Shown here: positions 24 through 21,406 of the stretch, piece by piece | How positions within the stretch are numbered: the stretch's first letter is position 1 | How the letters are laid out: every line of letters begins with the position of its first letter | DNA from: a virus | Reading direction: 5' to 3' (one strand) | Length of the DNA stretch: 22,984 nt | Virus record (IMG/VR): IMGVR_UViG_3300025818_002939 | Span: 1 to 22,984 of that record | Notes under the pieces: generated by a model | What the model was told of the DNA's origin: nothing | Seen by the model: the letters and a program-made list of their open reading frames with translations, nothing else | The model's database searches: none | Program-made: the position numbers and the translations under genes

Positions 24-70
24 TGGCTCCGCGAGCAGGACTCGAACCTGCGACCCAGTGATTAACAGTC
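24..70 (-). other. Attachment-site remnant: 3' half of tRNA-Asn (GUU)
   Basis: Read on the minus strand, this is the 3' part of a tRNA-Asn: anticodon loop CTGTTAA (62-68, anticodon GTT at 64-66), variable region, T-arm GCAGG-TTCGAGT-CCTGC, acceptor strand and encoded CCA (24-26). The 5' strand of the anticodon stem fails after two pairs (positions 69-70), and no D-arm or 5' acceptor follows. The gene is therefore cut near the anticodon, the usual crossover zone of tyrosine integrases that use tRNA genes. The sequence to the left continues like the normal downstream flank of a tRNA gene, and the sequence to the right is phage-like. I infer this is the distal att site of the prophage; the restored full tRNA should lie at the other end. 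Confidence 0.8.
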
Positions 71-140
71 GTAAGCACCTGTTGAAATCAAAAGATTATC
101 CTGGCCCGGACAAGTCCAGGAACCCCGATTCTTTGGGTGT

Positions 141-231: not shown

Positions 232-540
232 ATGAACCACAAATTCCGCAAAAAGCCCGTCGTTATTGAAGCTTTCCAAATGACGAAAGAGCGCCGCAAG
301 GACAATAGAGATTGGCCCGTATGGCTTGAGGAGGCTTGGAATAAAAACGACGACGAACCCGGCGCTTTGCGTCTTATAAACCCCTCGCTAAACGACGATG
401 AAGGCGCATTGATGATCAACACGCTTGAGGGCGTGCATGAAGTGTCTTGGGGCGACTACATTATCAGAGGTGTAAAGGGTGAACTGTACCCCTGCAAGCC
501 TGACATTTTCGAAGAAACCTATGAATTGGACCGGATTTAA
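232..540 (+). CDS. Conserved phage protein (PGDYG-like), 102 aa
   Basis: The start is the ATG at 232 behind AAGGAGAA. A longer frame reaching back through the tRNA remnant is artefactual. The protein opens with the KFRKKPVVIEAFQ signature and has a C-terminal WGDYIIRGVKGELYPCKPDIFEETY-type block. This pairing is common in small hypothetical proteins of temperate phages and resembles the PGDYG-type family. No biochemical role is established to my knowledge. It is the first gene of the plus-strand accessory run, with 11 bases between its stop and the next start. No promoter was identified in the 160 bp upstream. Family resemblance is from memory; the coding call itself is secure. Confidence 0.85.
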   Translation: MNHKFRKKPVVIEAFQMTKERRKDNRDWPVWLEEAWNKNDDEPGALRLINPSLNDDEGALMINTLEGVHEVSWGDYIIRGVKGELYPCKPDIFEETYELDRI

Positions 541-923: not shown

Positions 924-1179
924 CTACTCATTTGAACTACGGCAGTGGTGGAGTGATGAGACAGCGAGATCAAAGCACGAGGAACAGTCAAACGACTTCC
1001 AGAGTTGGACCACTTACTATTGGGGCGCTCGCAATAACCCTGCTGTGCCTATCTCTTTGGTGGTCAAAGATAGCTCTGACCACATTGCGCACATGAGCTA
1101 CACGCCAGAAGAAGCCATCGACCTAGGCCAACGCCTTATAATGGCGGGGCTAGAGGCTAAGGAGGCATCATGCACCTAG
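916..1179 (+). CDS. Hypothetical phage protein, 87 aa
   Basis: Starts with GTG at 916, overlapping the 38-codon ORF by 8 bases, and ends 10 bases inside the next gene, so the run looks translationally coupled. The product is rich in Trp and Tyr in its first half (QWWSDE, SWTTYYWG). It ends in a helical segment of the form YTPEEAIDLGQRLIMAGLEAKE, a pattern seen in small phage proteins of unknown role. No motif that names a function. Confidence 0.65.
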   Translation: MTSYSFELRQWWSDETARSKHEEQSNDFQSWTTYYWGARNNPAVPISLVVKDSSDHIAHMSYTPEEAIDLGQRLIMAGLEAKEASCT

Positions 1180-1475
1180 TTTGCTCAAAGTGCGGCGAGT
1201 CTATCACCAATCAGGAAGAGAACGATCTAATTTATAGTAAATTGTGCATCGCTTGCAGCACGATAAAGACACGTGTCGATTTTCCCGAATATCCGCTTCG
1301 CACGCCCCGCGATTGGCCAAATGGGGACATGCAGGATTTCCCGAAAGACAATGTGCCAGACTTTCCAACATCGAAGGAAGCTATAGGATGGGGGGTGGAA
1401 AAATCCTTCTGGTTAATGAATTTATTCCAGAAGCAGTCCAAACCTATAAAGCAAATTACCCTACCACTCCGGTAG
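1170..1475 (+). CDS. Zinc-ribbon-like phage protein with out-of-frame foreign 3' end
   Basis: ATG at 1170 behind AGGAGGCATC. The N-terminus has CSKC near residue 5 and CIAC near residue 27, a two-CxxC pattern fitting a small zinc ribbon. A Pro/Asp-rich stretch follows (VDFPEYP, DWPNGD, DFPKD, PDFPT). From about codon 72 (1384) onward the DNA is that of the methyltransferase gene read in the wrong frame, so the last ~30 residues are probably not native and the original 3' end is lost. It is best read as a phage gene broken by insertion of the restriction-modification block. Confidence 0.55.
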   Translation: MHLVCSKCGESITNQEENDLIYSKLCIACSTIKTRVDFPEYPLRTPRDWPNGDMQDFPKDNVPDFPTSKEAIGWGVEKSFWLMNLFQKQSKPIKQITLPLR

Positions 1476-2410
1476 AAATGATCGACATTAGGAAAATCAC
1501 TCGTCGTGGTGGACGACAGTATGTATTAGACTGGTTTAAATCTTATGGAATTGAGGAAGGTAATTACGACATCTTAGATGGTTCTCCTCCGTGCTCGACC
1601 TTTTCAACTTCTGGAAAGGGAAAGAAAAAAATAGAAGAGAAGAATGTAAAATACTCAGATACCACACAAGACCGTATCGGGATGCTGATCCACGATTTTG
1701 TGTATATAGCAAACTGTACCAAACCGAAGGTCTGTGTGATTGAGAATGTCCCCTCAATCAAATCGTCAGATGTATTCCACCACGCACTCAACCGTCTTCG
1801 TCGATGGGGGTACAAGGTAAATTTCAAAGTGTTGTGTTCCTCCAATTTTGGCGTTCCACAACGAAGAAATAGACTAATCGCAATAGCGGTTAGACCAGAT
1901 ATTTGTCGCAAGGTAGGCATAAAATCAGAAAGGGATCTCCTAGAGATTTATCCTCAGGGATCAATCTATGAACCAACACTTAGAGATGGACTTCAGGGTT
2001 TGGAGATAGATCCGACGCAAAGAAATTATCTACTGATGTCGTCGGTGAAGTCCTCTGCCTATGAGATATTGAAGTCTATTCCTAAAAATCCATCCCGCCC
2101 GATTGGAGTTGGTAATATCGATCCGGACTGGACATCGGATTTTAACCTAGTTCGAGCAAGTTGGGATCACCCATCGCCCACTCTGACCCAGATGGGACAA
2201 CAAGGTGGTGGCGGTGGAATCCACCATCCCGATGAAGATAGAGTCTTTACGACTGATGAACTCAAAAGATTGATGGGATTACCGGATGACTTCCGTTTGA
2301 CCGGAACCTTTAACCAGAAAGCAGAACGATGTGGACGGATGGTTACACCTCACTTGTATAAACATCTATCAAGGTCGATATATGAAAAAGTGATCCTCCC
2401 ATCACGATAA
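1388..2410 (+). CDS. 5'-truncated C5-cytosine DNA methyltransferase (Dcm-type)
   Basis: From ATG 1388 (340 aa) the protein carries the C5-methyltransferase motifs: motif IV PPC with catalytic Cys69, motif VI ENV at 119-121, motif VIII QRRNR at 158-162, a target-recognition stretch, then motif IX/X-like segments (TTDELKRLMGLPDDF and GRMVTPHLYKH). Missing is motif I (F-x-G-x-G), which binds S-adenosylmethionine and should lie about 20 residues before the GGKILLVNEF segment. A GTG frame can be read from 1244, but its first 48 codons are the zinc-ribbon gene in another frame. GAAGGAAG at 1373-1380 is a usable ribosome-binding site, so a shortened protein may be made. Without motif I it is probably inactive. 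Its stop lies 10 bases before hsdM. Confidence 0.85.
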   Translation: MGGGKILLVNEFIPEAVQTYKANYPTTPVEMIDIRKITRRGGRQYVLDWFKSYGIEEGNYDILDGSPPCSTFSTSGKGKKKIEEKNVKYSDTTQDRIGMLIHDFVYIANCTKPKVCVIENVPSIKSSDVFHHALNRLRRWGYKVNFKVLCSSNFGVPQRRNRLIAIAVRPDICRKVGIKSERDLLEIYPQGSIYEPTLRDGLQGLEIDPTQRNYLLMSSVKSSAYEILKSIPKNPSRPIGVGNIDPDWTSDFNLVRASWDHPSPTLTQMGQQGGGGGIHHPDEDRVFTTDELKRLMGLPDDFRLTGTFNQKAERCGRMVTPHLYKHLSRSIYEKVILPSR

Positions 2411-2420
2411 AGGATTTTTT

Positions 2421-4133
2421 ATGAATAACACAACCAACCTGTCGTCATTAATTTGGTCATCAGCAGATGATGTCCTTCGTGGTCTCTTCAAACCATCTGA
2501 GTATGGTCGGGTCATCCTTCCTTTCGTCGTCATGAGACGTCTAGATTGTGTTCTAGAACCTAAAAAAGACGAGGTATATGAACTCTATAACAAGTTCAAA
2601 GATCAACTCTCAGACCCCTCTCCGGTCATTCTAAGACAGGTTAGACTACCATTCTTCAATACCTCTAAATTTGATCTTTCACGTATCAAGAGTGATCCGA
2701 CAAACGTGTTGATGAACTTCAATAACTACGTTCAAGGTTATTCAAAGAATGTTCTCGACATCATTGAAAACTTTTCAATCAACCCATTAGTCGAGAAACT
2801 TCACAAAAATAAACGTCTGTATCTACTGATCGATAAATTTACAGAGTTTGATTTACATCCCGACAAGATAGACAACCACCAAATGGGGTCGGTCTATGAA
2901 GAACTTCTTCGTAAATTCTCTGAGATGTCTAATGAAGAAAGTGGTGACCACTTCACTCCCCGTGATGTCGTTAAACTTCTTGTATCCTTTGTTTTTGGTG
3001 GGGATAAAGAAGACCTTCAAGGTGAGGGAAAAATAAGATCAGTCTTTGATCCGTGTTGTGGAACAGGAGGGATGTTAACCATCGGTAAGGAGTGGGTCCT
3101 TGAGAACATTAACCCAAACCTTAAGATCGATTTATATGGTCAAGAACTAAACGATGTAACCTATTCAATCTGTAAGTCTGATCTTCTCATGATGGATGAG
3201 AATCCTGAAAACATTCAGGGTCCAACATCGTCCATATCAGATGATCGTCATCAAGGTCGAAAATTTGATTACATGATCACCAATCCACCATTTGGGGTTA
3301 GTTGGAAGTCCGAAGCAGATTTTGTGAAAGAAGAAGCAAAAGACCCCAATGGTCGTTTCTTCGTTGGAACACCACGGACATCAGACGGTTCTTTGTTGTT
3401 CCTTCAACACCTAATTCACAAGATGAACCCTGAGGGTTCTCGTATCGGTATCGTATTTAATGGTTCACCTTTATTTACAGGTGATGCTGGTAGTGGTGAG
3501 TCTGAGATCCGTAAATGGATCATCGAAAACGACTGGTTGGAATGTATTATTTCACTTCCTGATCAGATGTTTTTCAATACCGGTATCACCACTTATGTTT
3601 GGATAGTTACCAACAAAAAGTCACCTGTCAGACGAGGAAAAGTTCAATTAATAGATGGATCCTCTTTTTTTCAAGTCATGAAGAAATCACTGGGGTCTAA
3701 AAGAAAATGGATTTCACCCGAACAGTCAGATGAACTGTTTAAGTTATATCTAAACTTTGAAGACGGAGAATTCTCTAAAATTTATCCAAACAATTTCTTC
3801 GGTTATACTAAGGTGTTCGTTGAACAACCACTCATCGAAAATGGTGATATTAAAACCGACAAAAAAGGTAATCCAAAACCAGACACGTCAAAACGGGATA
3901 CAGAACGTGTTCCTCTTTCGGAAAATATTGATGATTATTATGACCGTGAAGTAAGACCCCACCTATCCGACTCTTGGATGGATCGTTCAAAAGACAAGGT
4001 TGGTTATGAAATAAATTTCACAAAATACTTTTACAAATTCACACCTTTAAGAGGTCTAGATGCGATCTCTAGTGATCTCAAAACTCTTGATGATGAGATT
4101 CAAACGTTGTCGTTGGAGATTACCGGTGAATAA
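2421..4133 (+). CDS. hsdM: Type I restriction-modification methyltransferase subunit HsdM
   Basis: Full-length N6-adenine methyltransferase subunit (570 aa). Visible: an N-terminal helical domain typical of HsdM, HFTPR at 177-181, motif I D-PCCGTGG at 210-217 (SAM binding), and motif IV NPPF at 288-291 (catalysis). In the family, two HsdM and one HsdS form the methylase that modifies both strands of a bipartite target, with DNA specificity set by HsdS. Translation starts at ATG 2421 behind AAGGA, and hsdS starts within its last codons. The coding sequence is more AT-rich than the virion genes and appears intact, so modification activity is plausible. Confidence 0.96.
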   Translation: MNNTTNLSSLIWSSADDVLRGLFKPSEYGRVILPFVVMRRLDCVLEPKKDEVYELYNKFKDQLSDPSPVILRQVRLPFFNTSKFDLSRIKSDPTNVLMNFNNYVQGYSKNVLDIIENFSINPLVEKLHKNKRLYLLIDKFTEFDLHPDKIDNHQMGSVYEELLRKFSEMSNEESGDHFTPRDVVKLLVSFVFGGDKEDLQGEGKIRSVFDPCCGTGGMLTIGKEWVLENINPNLKIDLYGQELNDVTYSICKSDLLMMDENPENIQGPTSSISDDRHQGRKFDYMITNPPFGVSWKSEADFVKEEAKDPNGRFFVGTPRTSDGSLLFLQHLIHKMNPEGSRIGIVFNGSPLFTGDAGSGESEIRKWIIENDWLECIISLPDQMFFNTGITTYVWIVTNKKSPVRRGKVQLIDGSSFFQVMKKSLGSKRKWISPEQSDELFKLYLNFEDGEFSKIYPNNFFGYTKVFVEQPLIENGDIKTDKKGNPKPDTSKRDTERVPLSENIDDYYDREVRPHLSDSWMDRSKDKVGYEINFTKYFYKFTPLRGLDAISSDLKTLDDEIQTLSLEITGE

Positions 4134-5400
4134 TTACGACAATTATAAATCGACAGGTCACCATTGGATTGGAGACATTCCTTCTTGTTGGGATTGTAAT
4201 CGTGTTGGAAGGACAACCTATGTCAAAGGTCGAATTGGTTGGAAAAACCTTCGAGCAGAAGATTTTACGGATAATGGACCTTATCTGGTAACAGGAACAG
4301 ATTTTGATTCAGGGAAAATTAACTGGTCAAAATCTCACCATGTGGACGATGAAAGATATGATGAAGACCCATTTATTCAATTGGAGAAGCAAGATGTTTT
4401 GATAACAAAAGATGGGACTATCGGAAAAATAGCATATTTAGATGACATACCAGATAGAGCAACTTTGAATAGTGGTATTTTTGTTACTAGACCATTATCG
4501 AATGACCTATACACTCAGAGATATTTCTTTTGGATAGTCTCATCACCTTTATTCGACGAATTTGTCAGATATAACTCATCGGGTTCCACTATTCTTCATT
4601 TATATCAAAATGTATTTGAAAGATTTTTCTTTCCTATTCCTTCAATCGAAGAACAAAAACTGATCTCTCGTTACCTCGATAAAAAGACCAGTCAGATTGA
4701 TTCATTGGTCGAGAAGATTCAGAAGAAAATTGAACTCCTCAAAGAACAACGAACCTCATTAATCAATCATTATGTCACCAAAGGTCTCGACCTAAATGTT
4801 GAGATGAAGGACAGTGGTGTTGAGTGGATTGGTGAGATACCGAAACATTGGACAATTGTAAGACTGAGGTTCCTGTGTGATATCAAGACTGGAGGAAAGG
4901 ATACGCAAGATAACGTTGAAAACGGTTCTTATCCTTTTTTTGTGAGGTCACCTAATATTGAAAGAATAAATTCTTTTTCCTTTGACGGAGAAGCAGTTTT
5001 AACATCAGGTGATGGAGCAGGTGTTGGTAAGATTTTCCATTATTATGTTGGAAAATTTGACTACCATCAACGAGTATATAAATTTTCAAATTTCAAAGAC
5101 ATAATGGGAAAGTACTTCTATTGGTTTTTGAAAGAAAACTTTCAGTATGAAATTCTTCGTTGGAATGCTAAATCGACCGTAGACTCTGTAAGATTACCAT
5201 TTCTCCAAAACTTCCCAATGGTACTTCCACCGATCGAGGAACAAGAGAATCTCTTATTAAAGATTGACTCTATTGATGATCGTGTTGAAAAACTCATCCA
5301 ACGTTTGATGAATAAAATAGAAATTTTAAAAGAATATCGACAGTCTCTGATTTCTTCAGTTGTTACCGGTAAGGTCAGGATAACGGAGGACATGATATGA
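4126..5400 (+). CDS. hsdS: Type I specificity subunit HsdS
   Basis: The best start is GTG 4126 (424 aa), 8 bases inside the end of hsdM and behind TTGGAGATTACC; the product then begins NNYDNYKSTGHHWIGDIP. The protein has the two-fold plan of HsdS: target-recognition domain 1, a central conserved helix pair (IEEQKLISRYLDKKTSQID...), a second WIGEIP entry segment, target-recognition domain 2, and a C-terminal conserved helix pair (IEEQENLLLKID...). The recognition sequence cannot be predicted here. Both halves look complete, so it should assemble with HsdM. The stop overlaps the next start as ATGA. Confidence 0.95.
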   Translation: MNNYDNYKSTGHHWIGDIPSCWDCNRVGRTTYVKGRIGWKNLRAEDFTDNGPYLVTGTDFDSGKINWSKSHHVDDERYDEDPFIQLEKQDVLITKDGTIGKIAYLDDIPDRATLNSGIFVTRPLSNDLYTQRYFFWIVSSPLFDEFVRYNSSGSTILHLYQNVFERFFFPIPSIEEQKLISRYLDKKTSQIDSLVEKIQKKIELLKEQRTSLINHYVTKGLDLNVEMKDSGVEWIGEIPKHWTIVRLRFLCDIKTGGKDTQDNVENGSYPFFVRSPNIERINSFSFDGEAVLTSGDGAGVGKIFHYYVGKFDYHQRVYKFSNFKDIMGKYFYWFLKENFQYEILRWNAKSTVDSVRLPFLQNFPMVLPPIEEQENLLLKIDSIDDRVEKLIQRLMNKIEILKEYRQSLISSVVTGKVRITEDMI

Positions 5401-6047
5401 GTGGTCTGAGTCCTACCGAAAAACGGTTTGAAGAACATATTGAAGACCACCTGAAGTCAGTTGGATATTCGACCACCCACTTTAGTGAATATGACCGTAA
5501 TCTTTGTTTGATCCGAGATCACGTCATCGATTTCATCAAAAGAACACAACCCGAAGAATGGGGACGTCTCCAAGATATTTACGATGTAGATACTGAGAAC
5601 AAGATTCTTTCAAGAATCTCATCAGAGATATCCAAACGGGGGATTATTGACGTATTAAGACACCAAGTAGTTGATCGTGGTGTATATATTAATCTGTGTT
5701 ATTTCGAACCCAAGAGTGACCTCAATCCAGACCACTTAACACTATATCAATCAAACCAATTCACGGTAGTTCGACAACTTCATTATTCCAATCAGAATGA
5801 AAACTCGATTGATATGGTTTTGTTCCTAAACGGTCTCCCAATTGTGACTAGGTTCTGGAAAGGCAAGTTCGTACAATGGACGCATGAGCTTGAGGGCGCT
5901 TCCTTTAAGGACGCACGAACCTTAATCGCAAGGGCCGCAAATAAAGGCGGACTGGTATGCGAAGAATTCCGCACTCCAAGAAGAAAGGGGAAGGAAAAGC
6001 CTCCCGCATTTAGCGCCGAGATTTACCACTTTCATGATTTTCACTAG
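5397..6047 (+). CDS. Truncated HsdR N-terminus fused to phage-type C-terminal tail
   Basis: ATG 5397 follows AACGGAGGACATG and overlaps the hsdS stop. Residues 1-151 match the start of type I restriction subunits: a FIKRTQPEEWGRL-type segment, DVLR, NQFTVVRQ, and NSIDMVLFLNGLPIVT with the nuclease Asp at 139. In intact HsdR an E-x-K motif follows within a few residues, then about 800 residues of helicase motor; all of that is absent. From about 5849 the frame continues with 65 residues of different character (DARTLIARAANKGGLVCEE, RRKGKEKPPAFSAEIYHF), which resemble the last helix and wing of a winged-helix protein. No restriction activity is expected. A residual role in binding HsdM/HsdS is conceivable but unproven. 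Confidence 0.85.
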   Translation: MSGLSPTEKRFEEHIEDHLKSVGYSTTHFSEYDRNLCLIRDHVIDFIKRTQPEEWGRLQDIYDVDTENKILSRISSEISKRGIIDVLRHQVVDRGVYINLCYFEPKSDLNPDHLTLYQSNQFTVVRQLHYSNQNENSIDMVLFLNGLPIVTRFWKGKFVQWTHELEGASFKDARTLIARAANKGGLVCEEFRTPRRKGKEKPPAFSAEIYHFHDFH

Positions 6048-6049
6048 GT

Positions 6050-6334
6050 CTAGTTCCCGCCCCCACCCTTAGAAGCCAGCACCCTCTTGCTAGCCCGTAT
6101 TTGCTCTCTGAGCACAATATGGTCCTTGGTGAACTCTGCGGGGGCAGATCCTTCAGGTTGACCCTCTAGCCAGTCTGCTAGCTCTGCAATGAAGGGTTCA
6201 TCGTATTGCTTAAGCTCTGGCAAAGCAGAGACGTACACCAGCCTAGAGCCCGTTGTCTCGCAACCTGTTAGCAGCACGCTTGTTACAAAGAGGCCGCTTA
6301 TTAGCAGCGTCGACTTGAGCTTTACGGATTTCAT
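6050..6334 (-). CDS. Rz1-like outer-membrane lipoprotein spanin
   Basis: 94 aa. N-terminal lipoprotein signal: MKSVKLK, hydrophobic core, lipobox LLTGC with Cys25 as the lipidation site. The mature part is short and ends in a Gly run. The start codon lies inside the preceding spanin gene in a different reading frame (overlap 6243-6334), the classic Rz/Rz1 arrangement. Its role would be to pair with the inner-membrane spanin and fuse the two membranes after the endolysin has cut the wall. It is the last gene of the late operon; its stop codon is separated from the convergent HsdR-fusion stop by only two bases, leaving no room for a terminator. Confidence 0.88.
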   Translation of the reverse strand: MKSVKLKSTLLISGLFVTSVLLTGCETTGSRLVYVSALPELKQYDEPFIAELADWLEGQPEGSAPAEFTKDHIVLREQIRASKRVLASKGGGGN

Positions 6335-6527
6335 TTTCTGTCTTTCTAACTCGTTCGTTTTCGGCGGCTAGTTTCGCTTGGTTCTTTGCGTTAGCTTCTG
6401 CTTTGCCTTCACTCTTTTTCTTTGCGCCATATGCCTTGAGGCCAAGTAGCAACAGAGCAAGAGCACCGACCGCCTGAACGATACGATTGTTAGTAAAGAA
6501 GCCGATTATTGCGGGTATGCCGATCAT
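6243..6527 (-). CDS. Rz-like inner-membrane spanin
   Basis: 94 aa, type II membrane topology: one transmembrane segment (about residues 14-33, NRIVQAVGALALLLLGLKAY) followed by a Lys/Glu/Ala-rich helical region (about 36-75) suited to the periplasmic coiled coil of an i-spanin. Shorter than lambda Rz (153 aa) but with the same plan, and followed by an overlapping lipoprotein gene. The ATG at 6525-6527 overlaps the stop of the 24-codon micro-ORF upstream (ATGA), so the two are likely coupled. Confidence 0.82.
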   Translation of the reverse strand: MIGIPAIIGFFTNNRIVQAVGALALLLLGLKAYGAKKKSEGKAEANAKNQAKLAAENERVRKTENEIRKAQVDAANKRPLCNKRAANRLRDNGL

Positions 6528-6598
6528 TGCGGAACTCCAAAATTAACAACCAACATCGCTAGGATCACCGCGGCGGATATTGCTAATAAAATACGCAT
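6524..6598 (-). CDS. 24-aa membrane micro-ORF in the lysis cassette
   Basis: ATG at 6596-6598 overlaps the amidase stop (TAATG), and its TGA at 6524-6526 overlaps the Rz start (ATGA). The 24-residue product is one hydrophobic helix with a basic N-terminus (MRILLAISAAVILAML, then VVNFGVPQ). Overlap at both ends makes translation by coupling likely and argues against chance. A role as a lysis accessory peptide, or simply as a coupling bridge, is inference. An alternative is a non-functional spacer. Confidence 0.5.
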   Translation of the reverse strand: MRILLAISAAVILAMLVVNFGVPQ

Positions 6599-7476
6599 TA
6601 CGCCTGCCCTTTTTCGTGGTCTTCCTTGCGGGCACGCTCAACCTTGTTTGCTTGTACACGCTGTAAAATGAACAACACAGCGGCACCGAACAACAAAACG
6701 CCAATCCCGACTTCAATGTATTGTGACCAGCCCCACGCGGTTTTAGCTATTTCCGTTACAGCATTTGGGTCGGCGGCGATCTCTTGAGCGCCTTCTAGGA
6801 ACGGTTTAGCCGTGGCTCCGATACCTGACACGACCCCGACTGTAGATCCTACCCACGAAGTGGCTTTCTGCTTTTTCACAGCTTTGATCGTTCGGCTTTC
6901 GCTCAGATTTCGGCGCGGCTGAATCTCGAAGTATTGCAAGGCCCCTTGAACAATCGCATAGGCGAGATCTTCCACCTCCTGCGGCTCGTCCACCTTTGCG
7001 CAATTCTTGGGATTGCTACCAAAGAACGGTTCAATTAGGATCGTTGGTGCCTTGCCGGCCATAAGGCTTCGGGAGCCCCTGCCGCCATCCGCACGGACCT
7101 TCACCCCACGGTCAGGGAGGCCCAGAGCGTCGACCATTTTATCCTGAACGTAGCCAGCCAGAGCCATAGAGCCAGGCGTGCCAGATGATAAAACCTCTGT
7201 GCCTGTTGCTGTCTTGCCCGCCGCGTTGAAATGCAGCTCTATCGCGGCATCAGCGCCCCATTGATCAACCTCCTTGTAAACGTCGATGACTTCTTGGGGA
7301 TACCCGACGCCAGGCTTCCTAAAGAAGATTTGAGACTCTACAGAAGCGTCAGCGTAGGCGTGAATACACTTTGCAAGGCCAGTATTAAATTCAAATTCAG
7401 ACTGCCCATTGTCAGCCCTAACCGCGCCTTGTTTTTGGCTGTTGTGGCCAACGATGATTGCTAGTTTTTTTGACAT
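6598..7476 (-). CDS. Endolysin: N-acetylmuramoyl-L-alanine amidase (Amidase_3) with C-terminal membrane anchor
   Basis: 292 aa from ATG 7476. Zinc-amidase signatures: GHNS with His11, Glu27 (S-E-F-E-F-N), His82 in ELHFN, and catalytic Glu149 in ILIEPFFGSNP. This family cleaves the bond between N-acetylmuramic acid and the stem peptide. After the catalytic domain (to ~195) comes a low-complexity linker and one transmembrane segment near 252-272 (EVGIGVLLFGAAVLFILQ), then a basic tail. There is no N-terminal signal or SAR segment. A TTG start 13 codons upstream (7515) would lie within the preceding gene and is unlikely. AAGGAGG at 7500-7506 is separated from the ATG by a hairpin plus eight U, see the terminator entry. 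Confidence 0.92.
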   Translation of the reverse strand: MSKKLAIIVGHNSQKQGAVRADNGQSEFEFNTGLAKCIHAYADASVESQIFFRKPGVGYPQEVIDVYKEVDQWGADAAIELHFNAAGKTATGTEVLSSGTPGSMALAGYVQDKMVDALGLPDRGVKVRADGGRGSRSLMAGKAPTILIEPFFGSNPKNCAKVDEPQEVEDLAYAIVQGALQYFEIQPRRNLSESRTIKAVKKQKATSWVGSTVGVVSGIGATAKPFLEGAQEIAADPNAVTEIAKTAWGWSQYIEVGIGVLLFGAAVLFILQRVQANKVERARKEDHEKGQA

Positions 7477-7499
7477 AAAAAAAACCGCCTCAAGGGCGG
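7477..7499 (-). terminator. Terminator-like hairpin between Shine-Dalgarno and start of the endolysin gene
   Basis: On the minus strand the order is AAGGAGG (7506-7500), stem CCGCC / GGCGG with a 5-base loop (7499-7485), eight T (7484-7477), then ATG. It has the form of an intrinsic terminator, but it lies exactly between an optimal Shine-Dalgarno and the endolysin start. The stop codon of the upstream membrane gene is in the loop. Folding would leave an 8-base effective spacing, so it may help initiation, attenuate transcription, or both. Confidence 0.65.
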
Positions 7500-7789
7500 C
7501 CTCCTTTTCTGGCAACCACCCAGAAACTCACGGCTAGAATGACTATGCCGTAATCTTTCAAAACCCAGAACGGCAGCTGTAGGTCCGAGGGTGATATGCC
7601 GGTTTGAAGATAGTAGATGTTTCGCCCGAATTGGCCGATTAAGCCCGCGGCTATGACGCTAAGACCCAACCTGTGCCACTTAGGAGCCTTAACCAGGCCC
7701 TCGTGCGACTGTAGAATGGCAATGATTGAGATCGCCCCAATAGGATCAGCTATTAAGATCCCATAGACAGCAATTAGCTCAATCATCAT
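7490..7789 (-). CDS. Three-helix membrane protein, holin or antiholin candidate
   Basis: 99 aa with three hydrophobic segments: about 3-27 (IELIAVYGILIADPIGAISIIAILQ), 42-60 (LGLSVIAAGLIGQFGRNIY) and 74-93 (PFWVLKDYGIVILAVSFWVV), ending in a short basic tail. That size and topology fit a class I holin. It starts 11 bases inside the end of the preceding membrane gene and precedes the endolysin. Which of the two neighbouring membrane proteins is the holin cannot be decided from sequence. Two adjacent ATG codons (7787 and 7784) are available. Confidence 0.7.
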   Translation of the reverse strand: MMIELIAVYGILIADPIGAISIIAILQSHEGLVKAPKWHRLGLSVIAAGLIGQFGRNIYYLQTGISPSDLQLPFWVLKDYGIVILAVSFWVVARKGGRP

Positions 7790-8105
7790 CTGTCTTACCG
7801 CCCCGCAAAGAGTTTACCGTTTTGATCGGGTCTTTTGAAAAGCGGTCCGCTATTTTGAAAAGCCCCGACAAGAGGTACATTGCAAACAGCCCTGTTAAAA
7901 AAGCTGCAGCACCTTGTGAATGCTCTTTGAGATCCCAAAGGTCGCTTATTAGCGGCGTGAAGTAAGCGGCACAAAAGGCCCCTGCTATCACTGAAAGCAG
8001 AGATTTCCGCCATGTCAGTTCAGGTAAAAAGGCCAATGAAACTACTCCGCCAACAAAGCCCGCTATGAATTCGGGAAATTTAAATCCAAGAAGATTTTCT
8101 ATCAT
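7779..8105 (-). CDS. Holin-like membrane protein, 108 aa
   Basis: Three predicted membrane segments: about 12-29 (PEFIAGFVGGVVSLAFLP), 35-54 (LLSVIAGAFCAAYFTPLISD), and 66-84 (AAAFLTGLFAMYLLSGLFK). A charged C-terminus follows (SKDPIKTVNSLRGGKTDDD). The pattern matches class I holins, including small ones in proteobacterial temperate phages, and the gene opens the lysis cassette. Its ATG (8103-8105) follows AGGG. It overlaps the next membrane gene by 11 bases. The holin call rests on topology and position, not on a named family match. Confidence 0.7.
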   Translation of the reverse strand: MIENLLGFKFPEFIAGFVGGVVSLAFLPELTWRKSLLSVIAGAFCAAYFTPLISDLWDLKEHSQGAAAFLTGLFAMYLLSGLFKIADRFSKDPIKTVNSLRGGKTDDD

Positions 8106-8200
8106 CGCCCTATCATTTCTGGCAGTTGTCAGCCTGGTTGGATTGTGTCATTTTGGCCTTGCATTACGGGGCCGAGATGAACTGGTCCAGGGTTGTTTAG

Positions 8201-8229
8201 GGCGCGGCTTAGGCTGCGCTCTTTTTTTA
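8201..8229 (+). terminator. Plus-strand intrinsic terminator facing the late operon
   Basis: GCGCGGC (8202-8208), loop TTAG, GCTGCGC (8213-8219), seven pairs with one G-U, then TCTTTTTTT. It reads as a strong terminator on the plus strand only; the minus strand has no U-tract after this stem. No plus-strand gene lies just upstream. It may stop transcription running through from the accessory operon, which ends at 6047 with no terminator of its own, or define an antisense or small RNA in the 8106-8226 gap. Confidence 0.65.
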
Positions 8230-10164
8230 TGCGCGCACGTCACCGTAGATTACGTGACCCCAGGAGCCCGCATTGCCGTACGCTGGGCGATTTAGCGTTG
8301 TCGTTGCTAGCTGGTCATTTGCTGAGATAACAGACCCGGCTTGGCCGTTGGCTACGTAAAGATCAAAGCTATCGCCATGGGCGTCGGTGTTGTTGCCTGT
8401 GATATCCCCAGATGCCACATTGACTTCACCGCCTGCCGTGTAAACACCATTTCTCTCGCAAAGAGTGATAACAGTGCCTGGAACAACAGCCCGTCCCGAG
8501 TAATTGTCTATTCCGTTCTTGCAATAAGCAATAACAAGGCTCGGGTCTCCTAAAGCGCCAGCTGCTTCTATAAACCCGCCGGGCCTAATTTCGATACCTG
8601 CGCCGGGGAAATCAACGATCCCGATGTTTTCTATTTTGACATTGCCGCCATTTCTAGCCCCACTTCTGTCACCTACAACAAGACCGTCAATTCCTGGGTT
8701 GCCTTTAATAAGAAAATTCTTAAACAGACCTAGATTTCCCAAGATTGCCAACCCTTGGCTTTCGCAAATCAGGTGGGTTGGGAATTTGCCTTCCATCATC
8801 GCAATATCTGTCGCCTTGACGTCCACAAAATCGGAAAGCTCCGGCATGTCTGTTACATTTTGACCGGTCAAAATGATGTTAGAGCCAAACGGATGCTCAA
8901 AGGCCATCAACGGGGTTTCCACCAACTGCGGTGTTATCTCATGCTCACCAAACACCGAGATTGTAAGGCGCTTTTTATTGTCGATTGCGTGAGGTTGGAG
9001 AAACTCAAAAACATCGTTTAAGTCATCAAATATCGCGCCTGAAGTCCCTGGCGCTTTAACTTCGATTGTGGCGTTGTCGTCCAGGCAAAATGCGTTTAGG
9101 CGTTGGATTTGCGGGCATGCAAAAGCATAAGCCGCTCTCTTGCCGATCTCATCCAATGCAGGCCCGTCAAAGTGGAGATCATTGGTTTCGTCATTAATCC
9201 CAAGGCCTTCTGTTGGGATAACCATGTGCGTTGCGGACTGGCCTCGGGAAAGCCATTGCTTTGTGAAACTTTGCGCTCCCCACCTTTTATAAAGAAGAAC
9301 ATCTAAGAATCTTGTTTTATCGGTCCACCAAGTTTGCGCGGCAAGGCTGTTTTTAAATTCTAGTGATTGATCGTAGTAATCATCGAGCGGGTTGGAGTTA
9401 TCGCTTTCGCCCTGCGTCCAAAGCATGGCTGAAACATCCGAGGCCCCTAAAGCGTTGAGTGCGTCTTGCACGTCCTCAAGTAAAGGAGACCACATATCCA
9501 CACCGCCGACGGGCTCCGTCGGGATAGCCAGCCCATTAGCCGGGTTTGTCCAAAACCTAATCGGCAAACCGCCCTGAACGTTTAGAACGATCATTACTTC
9601 TAAACCGTACAGCAGGGCCAATTCGTTCGCCATTTGCAGGGTAGAGCTGTTTTTTCCTACCTCGAACGGTTCAACGCCGTTTTCTGCTTGAACAAAACCC
9701 TCTACTGTTGTGTCCCATACCTTAACTAAGTTAGATATCGTGTCGTTACCCCCGACGCCCTTACCGACTGCGTTCGACTGGCCGGAGGCGATCAAGATAA
9801 TGCGTAAAACATCACCAGAACAAACCACAGTGGGGATTAGCTGAAGCCCCCCACTATCGCTTGAACCAGCCCCAGCAACCGCGCCTTCGACATGGACGTA
9901 ATCTGACGGATAGCCCTGGATTGACTCATTTATATCGCTATGAATGTCCACTTTGTAAGAGCCAGCAGGCACATAGATTTCCGGGAATGTGCCTGTACTG
10001 TCAGCGACAATCGGTGTAGGATTAAACGTTTCAAACAAAACGTCGCTGTAGGTCTGCACGGGCGTTGATGAATCTGCCTCAAACAGATATAGTTTTGCTC
10101 CCGGCACGGCTTCGCCGTTAGGACCGAGCGCTCGAACAGCGCCCCCTTGTAGGAGTCTTGCCAT
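8227..10164 (-). CDS. Tailspike with SGNH/acetylesterase domain and beta-helix
   Basis: 645 aa. Residues 1-95 form an adaptor-like domain common in phage fibres and spikes (NGEAVPGAKLYLFEA, VQTYSD, PVADSTG-type pattern, SYKV). Residues ~118-350 look like an SGNH hydrolase of the sialate-O-acetylesterase type: GQSN at 128-131 (nucleophile Ser130), GG at 198-199, WTQGESD at 249-255, and D-L-H-F at 329-332 (His331). Residues ~355-645 are Gly/Asn-rich repeating strands typical of a right-handed parallel beta-helix. The family removes acetyl groups from polysaccharide, so a receptor-modifying role on O-acetylated surface glycan is a reasonable inference. The ATG at 10164 follows AAAGGA. It lies at the P22 gene 9 position, after the gp16-like gene. 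Confidence 0.88.
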   Translation of the reverse strand: MARLLQGGAVRALGPNGEAVPGAKLYLFEADSSTPVQTYSDVLFETFNPTPIVADSTGTFPEIYVPAGSYKVDIHSDINESIQGYPSDYVHVEGAVAGAGSSDSGGLQLIPTVVCSGDVLRIILIASGQSNAVGKGVGGNDTISNLVKVWDTTVEGFVQAENGVEPFEVGKNSSTLQMANELALLYGLEVMIVLNVQGGLPIRFWTNPANGLAIPTEPVGGVDMWSPLLEDVQDALNALGASDVSAMLWTQGESDNSNPLDDYYDQSLEFKNSLAAQTWWTDKTRFLDVLLYKRWGAQSFTKQWLSRGQSATHMVIPTEGLGINDETNDLHFDGPALDEIGKRAAYAFACPQIQRLNAFCLDDNATIEVKAPGTSGAIFDDLNDVFEFLQPHAIDNKKRLTISVFGEHEITPQLVETPLMAFEHPFGSNIILTGQNVTDMPELSDFVDVKATDIAMMEGKFPTHLICESQGLAILGNLGLFKNFLIKGNPGIDGLVVGDRSGARNGGNVKIENIGIVDFPGAGIEIRPGGFIEAAGALGDPSLVIAYCKNGIDNYSGRAVVPGTVITLCERNGVYTAGGEVNVASGDITGNNTDAHGDSFDLYVANGQAGSVISANDQLATTTLNRPAYGNAGSWGHVIYGDVRA

Positions 10165-10185
10165 TTTGTATTTTTTCCTTTAGAT

Positions 10186-10205
10186 TGACCAGCTTATGAC
10201 CAGCT
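10186..10205. promoter_or_regulatory. Two copies of TGACCAGCT one helical turn apart
   Basis: TGACCAGCT at 10186-10194 and again at 10197-10205, 11 bp start to start, in the 49 bp between the tailspike start (minus strand, 10164) and the plus-strand membrane ORF start (10214). Same-face spacing between divergent starts suggests an operator. No convincing sigma70 promoter could be matched nearby. Confidence 0.4.
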
Positions 10206-10213
10206 GAAACGAG

Positions 10214-10492
10214 ATGAATTTGTTACGACCACACAAGCCCCATGATCCACATGAGACTATCGACCTCCCACCGGACCAATATGGCAGAGGGGAGCCCAAG
10301 AAGTGGAAAATTTGGCGTTATCATATAAAAACTATGTTAATCTGGTGTGTTATCTGGGTGCCCGCAATAGCCGGTTCATGGGCGCTGGTGTCTGCGTTGG
10401 ACTGGTTATCATATCAGGTGTCGCTGCCAATATTTCTCCTGACGAGCCTGCTAGTCGTTGCGTTGATCTTGATACTGCCTGGGGGGGAATAG
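10214..10492 (+). CDS. Antisense-oriented two-helix membrane protein (moron candidate)
   Basis: 92 aa on the strand opposite the late genes, overlapping antisense with the last 143 bases of the gp16-like gene. Hydrophilic N-terminus (HKPHDPHETIDLPPDQYGRGE), a basic aromatic stretch (KKWKIWRYHIK), then two strongly hydrophobic segments (about 40-62 and 70-89) ending in PGGE. This layout looks like a real small inner-membrane protein. P22 carries sieA and the immI genes in the same interval (gene 16 to gene 9), so a superinfection-exclusion or lysogenic role is a positional inference. ATG 10214 follows GAAACGAG, a weak ribosome-binding site. It could still be a chance frame. Confidence 0.55.
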   Translation: MNLLRPHKPHDPHETIDLPPDQYGRGEPKKWKIWRYHIKTMLIWCVIWVPAIAGSWALVSALDWLSYQVSLPIFLLTSLLVVALILILPGGE

Positions 10493-11900
10493 GGCTAACC
10501 CCACTCGCCACGGCATCCCGCAAAGACCGGGACGCGCCAACCATCGATTTGTCTGCCGATTTAGCCGCAAAATGGCCGACCCCCGGAATGATAATGTTTC
10601 CCCCTGGAATCATTGATCCGACCCCCTGACCGACGCCAAACGACACAACTCCGCGAGGAGCGAATTTAGCTAATAGCCGCGTGGCGGCTCCGCTTGTTTT
10701 TGCGCTCGCCATTTGCTTGACTAGTGCTACCTCCTCCTTACTGAACCCCCTGACCTTCTTGTCTTGTATCTTGTTGTAGAGAGTTTTCATTTCTCTCCTT
10801 ATCGTATTAGCCATGCCTGATTGGGTGAATTGTCCGGTCGCGTCGACTTCTGCCTTATCTAGTATTCGTTCAATGATCTTGGTTTTTGCTTTCCTGGTGT
10901 TTAGTTGCCTTGCTTGCTTGAGTATCTTCACGCCAGCAGCGTTGCCTGTGATTTGTGACGGGTTTAGGTTATCCGAAAACTCGTCAATCACATCTTTCAT
11001 TATTTTCAATTTTTGAACATCTTGTGGTTGCGCTCTTTTGATGGACTTCCCGACTACCTGCCTAAGCTCGTCCAATGCCTCCAGGCTTAATTCTCGTCCT
11101 GCTACGTCTTGCAGGTCATCAACAATGCCTGCTGTGTTGGGCCGAAGTGTTGAATTGACTCGCCCAGCGGACACACGCATTTTGTTGGCAAGTTTCGTCG
11201 CCGCTTCTTCGCTTATGACAACCCCAGCCTCCCGAGAAGCGCGATAAAGATCATCGGTTTGCTTTGCGAGCTCTTCGACAGCCGGGGCTACTGCTTTTGC
11301 GCCTCGCGAAGCAGCCGCCTTGGCAACAGCGTTACCTATCTTTTGAACTGCCGCCCCCCCAGCGGCCCCAAAAGCTGCTCCCTTGATAGCCCCCTTTAAG
11401 CGTCCTTCCACGTCTTCACCAGAACCAGAGCCATAAAGGCCACCATATGCGGCTCCCTCTACCCCTGCCCCCACGACAGACCCTAAAGGCGTAACTGCTT
11501 TTCCTGCCAATGTTATCCCAGATTTTGCCAGACCCACCCCGCCCGCCACGCCGCCGGTGATTTGTCCGGCTATTCGAGCGGTCTTGTTGTGCTGCTCGTC
11601 AAAAGCATCTATTCCGCGTTCTTTAGTGAGCGCTTTATCGTAGTCGCCTAAGTACCCGAACCCGCTATTAAAGCCTGCCGCTATTTCGTCTGCGTAACCG
11701 AGAGTCGCAAGGTCAGCGAAACCGCGAACGTAAGCGTCTGCCGTCTCCAAAGGGCCGCCACCAAGTCTATTTGGGGTTTGTTGCGGCTGTGCCGTGGCCG
11801 CTGCTTGGCTCCGACGGTCAAGCTCGGCCTGAGCAGCTGCCGCCATTTGACGCCGCTGAAGTTCCGCCCTCGCGGCTTCCTGTAATTGATTATTGTCCAT
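10350..11900 (-). CDS. Ejection protein, P22 gp16-like
   Basis: 516 aa. A charged, Gln/Ala-rich N-terminal helix (QEAARAELQRRQMAAAAQAEL) is followed by a glycine/alanine-rich hydrophobic stretch (about 95-190, with ITGGVAGGVGLAKSG and GAAFGAAGGAAVQ) that could insert in membrane. A helical region comes next, then a second Gly-rich stretch (GVVSFGVGQGVGSMIPGG). This matches gp16 of P22-like phages, which is ejected with the DNA and helps it cross the inner membrane. It follows the gp20-like gene with an 11-base overlap, again as in P22. The identification rests on composition and gene order rather than a signature motif. Confidence 0.72.
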   Translation of the reverse strand: MDNNQLQEAARAELQRRQMAAAAQAELDRRSQAAATAQPQQTPNRLGGGPLETADAYVRGFADLATLGYADEIAAGFNSGFGYLGDYDKALTKERGIDAFDEQHNKTARIAGQITGGVAGGVGLAKSGITLAGKAVTPLGSVVGAGVEGAAYGGLYGSGSGEDVEGRLKGAIKGAAFGAAGGAAVQKIGNAVAKAAASRGAKAVAPAVEELAKQTDDLYRASREAGVVISEEAATKLANKMRVSAGRVNSTLRPNTAGIVDDLQDVAGRELSLEALDELRQVVGKSIKRAQPQDVQKLKIMKDVIDEFSDNLNPSQITGNAAGVKILKQARQLNTRKAKTKIIERILDKAEVDATGQFTQSGMANTIRREMKTLYNKIQDKKVRGFSKEEVALVKQMASAKTSGAATRLLAKFAPRGVVSFGVGQGVGSMIPGGNIIIPGVGHFAAKSADKSMVGASRSLRDAVASGVSPIPPQAVSRSTQRLAGSSGEILAATPDMITSPTQTPAPMNRLLRAPR

Positions 11901-13101: not shown

Positions 13102-13700
13102 CAATAACTCCCGTACCCGTTCAACCCGGCAATGCCCGCTAGGTTGTTGAAACCACCGGTCAATGCGTTTGCCTGATTAATATAACCCGAGGCTCTAGCA
13201 TCACCTGCAAGCCGGTTATTCTGGCCGACTGCGTTAGCATAGTTCTGACCAAGCGCTGCTTGTTGACCCGTCGCGGTCTGCCCCGCTCCCGACAAAGAGG
13301 CCAACCTGTTGAGGTGCTGTCCGTATTGCTGATCTGCCAAACCCGTAGCAAAGCGAGCGCCTGATTTTAGCGTGTCCGAGGAAAGCCTTAGCCCCCTGGC
13401 GGAAGCTCCCTGCTCAATGGCTCTCATTCCTTCCCCAAGTTGGAACTGGTAACCCGGTGCCTGCTGGAACCCTGCGTAAGTCTCAGGTGCTTCACCAAGG
13501 CCCAGCTCGCTCTGGTAGGCCGCTAGCGCATTAGCTCCGGCTTCTCGATATGGAGCCCCGAATTCAAGACTATCGTTGTACATGCGGGATTGCAGAGCAT
13601 TGCTCCGATTGCTCGCTTTTTCTTGAGCTTTAGCGGCTTTGTTAGAGCCGATTAAGCCAGCAACGGTGCTACCGATAGCTAAAGCTGTTCCAAGAGCCAT
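13101..13700 (-). CDS. Ejection protein, P22 gp7-like
   Basis: 199 aa. Hydrophobic N-terminal helix (MALGTALAIGSTVAGLIGSNKAAKAQEKA), then a GAPYREAGANALAAYQ segment and a long Gly/Ala/Gln-rich remainder with AIEQGASARGLRLSSDTLKS, ending GLNGYGSY. This pattern is frequent in phage internal virion or DNA-transfer proteins placed between tail and gp20/gp16 genes. In P22, gp7 is ejected first and is processed at its N-terminus; whether that happens here is unknown. ATG 13698-13700 follows GAGGAAAACATAA, overlapping the end of the acetyltransferase gene. Confidence 0.72.
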   Translation of the reverse strand: MALGTALAIGSTVAGLIGSNKAAKAQEKASNRSNALQSRMYNDSLEFGAPYREAGANALAAYQSELGLGEAPETYAGFQQAPGYQFQLGEGMRAIEQGASARGLRLSSDTLKSGARFATGLADQQYGQHLNRLASLSGAGQTATGQQAALGQNYANAVGQNNRLAGDARASGYINQANALTGGFNNLAGIAGLNGYGSY

Positions 13701-18299: not shown

Positions 18300-20138
18300 T
18301 CAGGCTGTCTCAAGAAGGGCCAAAGCCTCTCCCTCAAGAGCAGAGTTTTCCATGTGCTGTTTTTGCGCAGCGGCTTGCTCTTTACTTGCCCTAGCAAGGC
18401 TTAAAGCCATATCCGCTTCTGCTTTTTGTTGCTCGCTTTGTGCCTGTGCTTCCGCTGCTTGAGCTTGGCTTTGTGATTGCCCTTCGAGCATTTCAATTAG
18501 CTTGTCTTTAATGTCTTTTTTCAGGTTTGGAGCCGCTTCGATCAAGATAGCTGGCGGAACCGACCCTGGCATTGAGGTTGCTAGGTTCACTAACTGTTCG
18601 AAGGTCTCACCCTGCAACGTAACTTGATCCGGCACCTCTTCAAGCATGATATCAACGTCCATTTTTGCGACGCTATTCTTTGTTCTGACGACCATTTGCA
18701 ATCGAGGGTCATTCGGCACAAGATTTATCCGCCGAGCTATCGCCTGAACCTCTTCTGGTTGCATACCTTCAAGCTCTTCCTTGAGCGTGACAGGTCGATT
18801 AATGCCAACGAATTTCATATTTCGTTCGTCGTCAGTTACGCGGAGCCATCGCTCCTCGGTCCAAAGCTGGCGAACTAAAGCCCAAATCTGACGATACACA
18901 GCTCTTGTGAACTGGCTCAAGCCATCCGTCAAAGGCGCGATCTCAATCATACCGCCTTGTTGTCGAGCAAGAATTGCGCGGCCTGATTGGCTTTCGCTTT
19001 CTCCCTTCCCTGCGAGACCCGAATTCGCCCCCATTAGGTCAATCTCGCTTTTGGCCTCTTGCAAAAGCTGGAATTGTCCTGCTGTTTGATCTTGATTCGA
19101 CAAGACCTCAAAAGGTGCCCTTGTGCTGTTCGGGTCGACCACATCATATTCAATATGACCGTCAGGCTTGGCCATTTCAGCCTTGACCGTCGCGGCTTTA
19201 ATCGCGCCCTTTTGCGCTGCTGTCTGACGAGTGTTTAGGCTGTGAAGCAATTTAGACCGGCGCTTGTTGATCTCGTCTTGTGGGTCAAGCATGTCTTTAA
19301 CGATGCCGTAGCGTTGGTTGTCACGGTCAACGTAAGCCGACTGCATGATCAGAGGGCAGAGGCTTTGGCCGTCTTCGTCGCGGTAAGGGCTAGCTCCTTG
19401 CTCAAGAATGCCACCGAACACAAATTTCGCCCAATTCCACTCGCCACCACGATTGTAATAAACAAGAACGCAAACAACACGCTTGCGACGAGGGTCTGAC
19501 CACACAAACCTTGACGGCTTATCGTCAAAAGTGTCGTCAATGCTGTCTTCACGTCGGATTGACCCGTCGATGATGTCTTCTTTACCGGGATATTGAGCCT
19601 TCAAGCTATCTGTGTCCGACCAAATAACCGCGCCCTTGTATCTAGCGTCAGAAAAGTCCTCTTCCTTTGAATGAGGATCGTAAAACAGACGGTCAAAGGA
19701 GTAGTAATTGAGAACAATTTCCGGCTCACCACGATTGTTGTTTTCATGGACGATCTCAACGCCACCAAGACCCTCAACAAGAATGTTCTCCCATATCTTA
19801 GACCGCTTCTTGTCCCAGTCTGTATTCTCAGCAACAAAGCGCAGTGCATCGGTTGCTGAACTGGCTTCTTGTTCGTGCTTTGGCGTCCGCGGAAAGGCCT
19901 TTGGATCTGTCCTTGACTGCATCTCGAGACCACGCAGCCAATCCACTTTACGCCTAACCCGGTTAATAACAATAGGCGCTTGTTTGCGTTTCTGAAGTGC
20001 CGCCGCCTCTTCCGGCGTCCACTGCTTGCCGTCGTAGTAATCTCTACACTTGTGTGACGTTAGTCTGGCGTCAACTCCCGCTTCCTCAGACTCGCGGAAC
20101 ATGTCGCGAAGGCTTTCAATGCCTATGCTACTTTCCAT
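18300..20138 (-). CDS. Portal protein, P22/Sf6 type
   Basis: 612 aa, somewhat shorter than P22 gp1 (725 aa). Early segments RDYYDGKQWTPEEAAALQKRKQAPIVINRVRRKVDWLRGLEMQSRTDPKAFPR are characteristic of this portal class, as are IWENILVEGLGGVEIV and the MLDPQDEINKRRSKLLHSLNTRQ helix. The C-terminal part is a Gln/Ala-rich helix (QSQSQAQAAEAQAQSEQQKAEADMALS), like the barrel of P22-type portals. The portal ring forms the DNA gate and connects head to gp4. It overlaps the end of terL by 16 bases. Confidence 0.93.
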   Translation of the reverse strand: MESSIGIESLRDMFRESEEAGVDARLTSHKCRDYYDGKQWTPEEAAALQKRKQAPIVINRVRRKVDWLRGLEMQSRTDPKAFPRTPKHEQEASSATDALRFVAENTDWDKKRSKIWENILVEGLGGVEIVHENNNRGEPEIVLNYYSFDRLFYDPHSKEEDFSDARYKGAVIWSDTDSLKAQYPGKEDIIDGSIRREDSIDDTFDDKPSRFVWSDPRRKRVVCVLVYYNRGGEWNWAKFVFGGILEQGASPYRDEDGQSLCPLIMQSAYVDRDNQRYGIVKDMLDPQDEINKRRSKLLHSLNTRQTAAQKGAIKAATVKAEMAKPDGHIEYDVVDPNSTRAPFEVLSNQDQTAGQFQLLQEAKSEIDLMGANSGLAGKGESESQSGRAILARQQGGMIEIAPLTDGLSQFTRAVYRQIWALVRQLWTEERWLRVTDDERNMKFVGINRPVTLKEELEGMQPEEVQAIARRINLVPNDPRLQMVVRTKNSVAKMDVDIMLEEVPDQVTLQGETFEQLVNLATSMPGSVPPAILIEAAPNLKKDIKDKLIEMLEGQSQSQAQAAEAQAQSEQQKAEADMALSLARASKEQAAAQKQHMENSALEGEALALLETA

Positions 20139-21406
20139 GATTCCTCTTCCTCATCGTCGTCATTAAGCAGGTAATCTGCGCCACGGCTGTAACTCGTTAA
20201 CTGATCGATATTATCCAAGACGGTGCCCTTACGGTGCAGCCCTTCCGCTCCGTATCTTAGGCCATCCATCAAATGATTGTTTTGGTCCAAAACGACCGAC
20301 AAGACCTCTTCTGTCTTGGGGTCTACTTTGTAAGAGTACTTTTTAAGCTCGTTTTGAGTGTTGACGCATCTGGGATGCACAACGATATCGAACGACTTCA
20401 AGAAGTTAATGCCATGCTCAATTGAGCCCTTACCTTTACGACACGCTTGAATTCTTTTAATCCCGTGACGCCTGCAATAGTCGATGGACTCTGGCCGAGC
20501 ATTATCAGCAATCACTGGATACTTTGTTGATCCTGGTATCTGACTTATCAGGCTCGGCAGGCGTTCCATTTCAACACCAACTTCGTAAACCTCGTGATCG
20601 ATATAGAGTGTTTTTCTGTTGCTTTTGCCGGGTAGAATGCAAAACCTTAATCCTGCTGTAGGATCTTGAGAGAAGCCCCAGTCAATGCCATAAAACCAGA
20701 TGATGTTGGCTGGCACTGCCAATTCTTTGACAGTGTATTCTTTAAACACCCGACTTTGTGAATGCTTAGCGTATTCGCCTAGCCAAATGTGGTTGTATTC
20801 TTCAATGTCTGCCCGCTTGTCGGCTTCTGCGTCGTCTTTAATGACTTGTGGGCAAAACGGGTTATCCACATAGTTCACATGAACTAAAACCGCCCTGCCT
20901 TTGTTCTTCCTAAACAGCGCCTCTATCGGGTCCGTTGGCTCGTTTGGGTTCCAAGAAAACCACAGTTCTGAGTCTTCTTCCCTGATTGTCGGGACAAGCA
21001 GCTTGAGCGAGCGTTTCGAAGCGTTTTGGGCTTCTTCGAACCAAGCTGTATTGAATCCCTCTAGAGACTTGACTGAATCTGCTGTGTGGTCTTGCATTCC
21101 CTGAAACAGGAATAGACCACGGCCACTTGTTGACCTTATTTCGCCGTCTACACTGCGAAAAAGATGCTGAACATTCATTGATCTGACCTTAGTCTCAATC
21201 AACGCCTTGGCTGAATGCTGCAAATCCTTCTGAACTTCGCGCAAGCAAACCGTTTTATGGTGTGGATCGCGGATATGGTTGATAACGGCTTTTTCTGCGA
21301 ACCTGTGTGACTTCCCGCTCCCTCGTCCACCTTTAGCCCCTTTGAAACGCGCCCTCTTCTCAAGAGGCAGCGACCATCTAGGCGTCGGTATTTGGAGTAG
21401 GGTCAA
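20123..21406 (-). CDS. terL: Terminase large subunit
   Basis: 427 aa, ATP-driven packaging motor and nuclease. Walker A GGRGSGKS at 26-33; Walker B-like TAWFEEAQ near 120-127; RNase H-fold nuclease acids Asp242 (GIDWGFSQDP), Asp301 (IADNARPES) and Asp381 (HLMDGLRYG). The motifs fit the PBSX/Sf6 gp2 type of large terminase, usual for headful packaging. The only start that leaves Walker A intact is TTG 21406; the next upstream codon but one is a stop. It overlaps terS by 29 bases. Confidence 0.96.
   Translation of the reverse strand: MTLLQIPTPRWSLPLEKRARFKGAKGGRGSGKSHRFAEKAVINHIRDPHHKTVCLREVQKDLQHSAKALIETKVRSMNVQHLFRSVDGEIRSTSGRGLFLFQGMQDHTADSVKSLEGFNTAWFEEAQNASKRSLKLLVPTIREEDSELWFSWNPNEPTDPIEALFRKNKGRAVLVHVNYVDNPFCPQVIKDDAEADKRADIEEYNHIWLGEYAKHSQSRVFKEYTVKELAVPANIIWFYGIDWGFSQDPTAGLRFCILPGKSNRKTLYIDHEVYEVGVEMERLPSLISQIPGSTKYPVIADNARPESIDYCRRHGIKRIQACRKGKGSIEHGINFLKSFDIVVHPRCVNTQNELKKYSYKVDPKTEEVLSVVLDQNNHLMDGLRYGAEGLHRKGTVLDNIDQLTSYSRGADYLLNDDDEEEESWKVA

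Follow-up and report, generated by a model that had tools for sequence, protein, structure and literature searches.

An intact hsdM–hsdS pair beside an hsdR stub in a tailed phage: a candidate modification-only fragment of a mobile type I restriction-modification locus

The window, by which we mean the whole stretch of DNA that was analysed, is an entire linear IMG/VR record, 22,984 bases long (IMGVR_UViG_3300025818_002939). Its minus strand carries the terminase, the portal, a tail-spike-like gene, the amidase and other late genes, and at its left end small plus-strand genes come after half of a tRNA-Asn-like sequence (Table 1). ARAGORN found no complete tRNA at this place, and the half is, judging from its sequence, a probable remnant of an attachment site at the phage end. 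Past the right end of the window, close relatives carry a repressor-like HTH gene and a DnaD-like helicase-loader gene. Taken together, the tRNA-Asn-like half, the small plus-strand genes and these two genes of the relatives suggest a probably temperate phage whose accessory region is bounded by the lysis genes and the attachment site. It is here, in the same record as the terminase, portal and amidase, that genes of a type I restriction-modification system are found.

Table 1 Features of the window, with position, strand and the evidence for each
Feature	Position	Strand	Evidence or remark
3' half of tRNA-Asn-like sequence, from the anticodon loop up to the acceptor end	28..75	−	Read from the sequence: GACTGTTAATC...GGTTCGAGTCC...GGAGCCA
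Phage accessory gene, phrog_419 family (function unassigned in the family)	232..540	+	E 2.5e-30
5' part of phage gene, CxxC...CxxC zinc-ribbon-like N-terminus, interrupted by the block	1170..1381	+	Frame goes on inside the block as far as 1475
Captured block, comprising everything that matches the intact L093 locus (3765-8237)	1382..5848	+	blastn edges; GC and codon usage
C5-cytosine methyltransferase remnant, 340 aa from ATG 1388 (AAGGA upstream)	1388..2410	+	91.5% amino acid identity to L093
hsdM, complete, 570 aa, FDPCCGTGG and NPPF motifs	2421..4133	+	Pfam N6_Mtase 6e-58, HsdM_N 3e-22
hsdS, complete, 424 aa, GTG start	4126..5400	+	Pfam Methylase_S 2e-29
hsdR stub, codons 1-151	5397..5849	+	Pfam HSDR_N 2e-8, match ends at residue 151
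3' part of phage gene, continuing the frame of the hsdR stub	5849..6047	+	Codon usage
Lysis end, phage late genes (spanin-like genes, amidase)	6050..7515	−	Convergent with the block
Portal and terminase large subunit genes	18300..21406	−	Mark the record as a tailed phage

The reference for the block is a 15.3-kb contig (IMGVR_UViG_3300020169_001442, hereafter L093) that came up in a scan with HsdM and in which the gene series is complete: a PP-loop ATPase and C5 methylase fusion, hsdM, hsdS and an hsdR of 979 aa. By blastn the window matches it at 85% of nucleotides over 1382-4172, 92% over 4637-4852 and 89% over 5331-5848. The homology is confined to 1382-5848, with the alignment ending at both points. 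The GC content is 0.485 to the left of the block, 0.389 inside it and 0.495-0.501 to the right, and the codon usage changes at the same edges, being phage-like in the flanks and donor-like in the block. The initial annotation had described a foreign restriction-modification block, more AT-rich than the virion genes, with broken genes at its edges and whole genes inside; the Pfam matches, the comparison with L093 and the composition bear this out, and the edges that it placed at 1384 and 5852 hold to within 2-4 bp.

Both outer genes of the block are incomplete. The C5 methylase is without its N-terminal PP-loop ATPase domain and its Pfam match (1e-39) begins only at profile position 16, so that motif I (FxGxG), which binds SAM and reads STFAGGGGSSTG in L093, is missing and the remnant is predicted to be inactive. 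In L093 the 662-aa fusion (2805-4793) adjoins the type I locus, its ATPase part resembling asparagine synthase and QueC, with distant relatives in jumbo phages. At the other end hsdR breaks off within the PD-ExK site, past the conserved Asp (SIDM..LFLNGLPIVT) but short of the ELK. The HsdR of the window ends in SIDMVLFLNGLPIVT, where full-length relatives go on with xELKN, the ExK of the nuclease, and the MELKN just past the cut is conserved in relatives. Because the break comes before ExK, the catalytic lysine and the entire motor are gone, and the 151-codon stub contains no ExK and no SF2 translocase motifs. This stub is the sole hsdR in the window, with no functional cognate nuclease nearby in a record that is part of a phage genome.

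The two inner genes are whole while the C5 methylase and hsdR are broken, which leaves only the capacity for modification, as the initial annotation had proposed. HsdM has the N-terminal HsdM_N domain together with the SAM and NPPF motifs, and HsdS the target-recognition domains and conserved spacers, of a type I methyltransferase (HsdM2S1). The target-recognition parts of HsdS are far from those of L093 (34% amino acid identity) and over the corresponding regions, 4172-4637 and 4852-5331, there is no nucleotide similarity at all, but the conserved spacers are kept and are similar. Since the recognition regions are dissimilar while the spacers are alike, the HsdS of the window probably differs from that of L093 in its DNA specificity, with domain exchange as the probable origin. 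The HsdM of the window also shows more replacements than the L093 HsdM when both are set against outgroups, which may reflect local recombination.

The block is collinear with the intact C5-hsdM-hsdS-hsdR locus and is joined to the phage DNA at non-homologous points, in agreement with the illegitimate exchange proposed earlier. The sequence TAGG, present at both edges and first read as a possible microhomology, does not serve as evidence for it: at the right edge it already lies outside the donor homology, and a shared 4-mer occurs in 19% of random placements of two ±5-nt windows. The stretch 1382-5848 is 4467 bp long, a multiple of 3, and when exactly this is taken out, positions 1170 to 6047 read through as a single open frame of 136 aa, though a 1-in-3 coincidence would give the same. 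What had been taken for two broken phage genes may therefore be one gene, cleanly interrupted. Profile matches to the joined frame were insignificant, and neither homologues of the two flanking parts nor a relative with the site empty were found in IMG/VR or the phage records.

Between the window and L093 the dN/dS is 0.046 for the C5 remnant, 0.068 for hsdM and 0.052 for the hsdR stub. Such low values in the stubs indicate constraint during nearly all of the divergence; more replacements would be expected had the sequence long been without use, and so most of the divergence from L093 is, on these ratios, older than the break and the break itself is recent. L093 is the only other locus found with the order C5-hsdM-hsdS-hsdR. 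Bacterial HsdM relatives (63-89%) occur in SAR116 and other Alphaproteobacteria, Gammaproteobacteria, Prochlorococcus, a Nitrospira bin and others; seven of them have a full hsdR and none has a C5 gene beside hsdM. A search of the bacterial genomes with hsdM relatives for the PP-loop and C5 fusion gave weak C5 matches only, none adjoining hsdM. The initial annotation had derived the block from a bacterial defence island and had looked to an intact bacterial locus of the same order as a check. This origin is not supported, as the bacterial loci found are hsdM-hsdS-hsdR without the C5 gene and the locus of the same order, L093, sits between serine recombinases. The donor was probably a mobile element like L093.

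The best reading, to which we give a probability of about 0.6, is that the phage carries the block at its accessory end as HsdM2S1 cargo for modification only, and that this protects it from a type I enzyme with the same recognition site. On this reading a marine tailed phage, probably temperate, recently took up 4467 bp from the interior of a mobile type I restriction-modification locus by illegitimate recombination, in what may have been a single event, and the piece came to lie among the accessory genes, with the late genes on one side and the attachment site on the other. The recent capture itself is well supported. The break has cost the C5 methyltransferase its SAM motif I and HsdR everything from just before the catalytic ExK, the whole hsdM-hsdS pair being left over, and expression could come from the plus-strand genes upstream. 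The window shares with type I systems such as EcoKI and EcoR124I an HsdM with HsdM_N and N6_Mtase domains, a two-domain HsdS, an HsdR N-terminal domain and the gene order M-S-R with overlapping genes; it differs in that its HsdR, a stub without ExK or motor, cannot restrict. In these known systems HsdM2S1 methylates without HsdR, and from the block, accordingly, methylation at one bipartite site is expected and no cutting. HsdM and HsdS would form an M2S1 adenine methyltransferase acting on the phage DNA and, in a lysogen, also on that of the host, and the progeny or prophage would be shielded against restriction by a type I enzyme that shares this specificity.

Truncated hsdR genes of this family were found at two further loci. 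L084 (IMGVR_UViG_3300038314_001501) is a siphophage record of 42 kb in which tail, HNH and replication genes are present. At 7989-10499 it has, like the window, an hsdM (76%), an hsdS and a truncated hsdR, which here has 58 codons and ends in TAG; no second hsdR is present in the record. It differs from the window in that its hsdS is of half length (211 aa, one recognition domain) and the genes belong to the early region, where their neighbours are an HNH gene and a replication gene. The other locus, at 7974-11398 of L100, belongs to a Prochlorococcus genome; hsdM and hsdS are intact, the hsdR homology stops at about codon 80, and no other hsdR of this family was found in the genome. Because the break points and the flanks differ, the three stubs look independent in origin. 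We considered whether viral contigs lose hsdR in general and rejected this: where the sequence of a more distant viral hsdM locus reaches far enough downstream, hsdR is nearly always complete, and most of the loci that lack a full hsdR are interrupted by the contig end. The loss of hsdR is thus no general rule, and the pattern is confined and its numbers small.

The block could instead be passenger DNA, captured recently by accident and without function, in which hsdM and hsdS have merely not decayed so far. The edges lie inside genes and both edge genes are broken, promoter-like sites are not in excess and the break is recent, so the intactness of the two genes taken alone is weak evidence of selection. 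However, an unrelated phage and a further unrelated genome also keep hsdM-hsdS with an hsdR stub, and the block of the window lies on the same strand as the accessory phage genes, behind them and with ribosome-binding-site-like sequences of its own, and on balance we think a capture without function unlikely.

It would seem still more unlikely that phage DNA was artificially joined to bacterial or mobile-element sequence during assembly or library preparation. Such artefacts do exist in related assemblies: in L003 (6204-7874, joint near 7467) the terminase of a contig of the same phage, 99% identical over this gene, runs in frame into a fragment of an RpoD-like sigma factor, the joint being an acidic low-complexity DDDEEE stretch, and this contig is evidently chimeric. 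The left junction of the window is seen in one assembled record alone; a search for its exact pattern in viral contigs, and scans with the neighbouring genes, gave no other match, though the window's own record was possibly left out. The right junction is contained in a separate IMG/VR record, L092, which corresponds to positions 2475-14044 of the window with 2 mismatches in 11.6 kb but may come from the same reads. As the right junction is identical in this record and the mismatches lie elsewhere, a simple sequencing error, about which the initial annotation had been concerned, does not account for it. Phage-like sequence flanks the block on both sides, which would call for two artefacts, and unlike the acidic repeat of L003 neither edge shares a long word with L093. 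The lack of a repeat and the phage-like sequence on both sides thus make an artefact less likely.

In lactococci, a plasmid-borne HsdS adds a new restriction specificity through the resident HsdR. That the intact hsdM-hsdS pair would likewise recruit a putative resident HsdR of the same family, giving the lysogen a new restriction specificity and a defence against superinfection, is very improbable: although members of the family with a full hsdR occur in marine Alphaproteobacteria, Prochlorococcus and others, a compatible HsdR in the host of this phage is only presumed.

Returning to protective modification as the favoured role, the closest counterpart of the block in gene order, L093, matches it at 85-89% of nucleotides in the coding parts but has complete genes and serine recombinases on both sides. 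A Mycoplasma anatis prophage (MW353166) also has hsdM-hsdS followed by phage genes with no hsdR in the adjacent genes, but its HsdM is distant (28% over half its length) and no stub or C5 remnant is annotated. In the P1-like phage vB_EcoM-673R5 (ON470615), hsdM, hsdS and hsdR are likewise annotated on a phage, some in pieces; there hsdR is in two pieces and hsdM possibly split, and both the family and the phage are different. Protective methylation by mobile elements has been described, mostly with type II-like enzymes, in a review (PMC12707154) that cites Murphy et al, 2013 and covers phage orphan or 'Trojan horse' methyltransferases. These are alike in being phage modification genes without a working partner nuclease, but most are single-subunit type II-like enzymes, whereas the window has a type I pair of two genes, next to which part of the nuclease gene can still be seen. 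Phage-borne protective methylation is already known, so the window is a good new example of it, not a new type of system.

Its value would lie in being a readable recent case of a phage turning a restriction system into protection, with the modifying half kept and the cutting half lost in one piece. Seen beside the independent hsdR stubs of L084 and L100, it suggests that reduction to hsdM-hsdS can recur among type I systems of this family. More tentatively, and we regard this as rather doubtful, phages may repeatedly turn this marine type I family modification-only by breaking hsdR near its start, which would make the stubs a recurrent adaptive state and not chance debris. If so, the hsdR-stub loci would amount to Trojan-horse type I methylation.

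Among the late genes, the tail-spike-like protein encoded at 8227-10164 reads 'GQSNAVGKG', as in SGNH carbohydrate esterases, and both differences between the window and L092 (9358 and 9663) fall in this gene. A small GNAT-like protein, recognised by eye, is encoded at 13701-14117 within the late operon.
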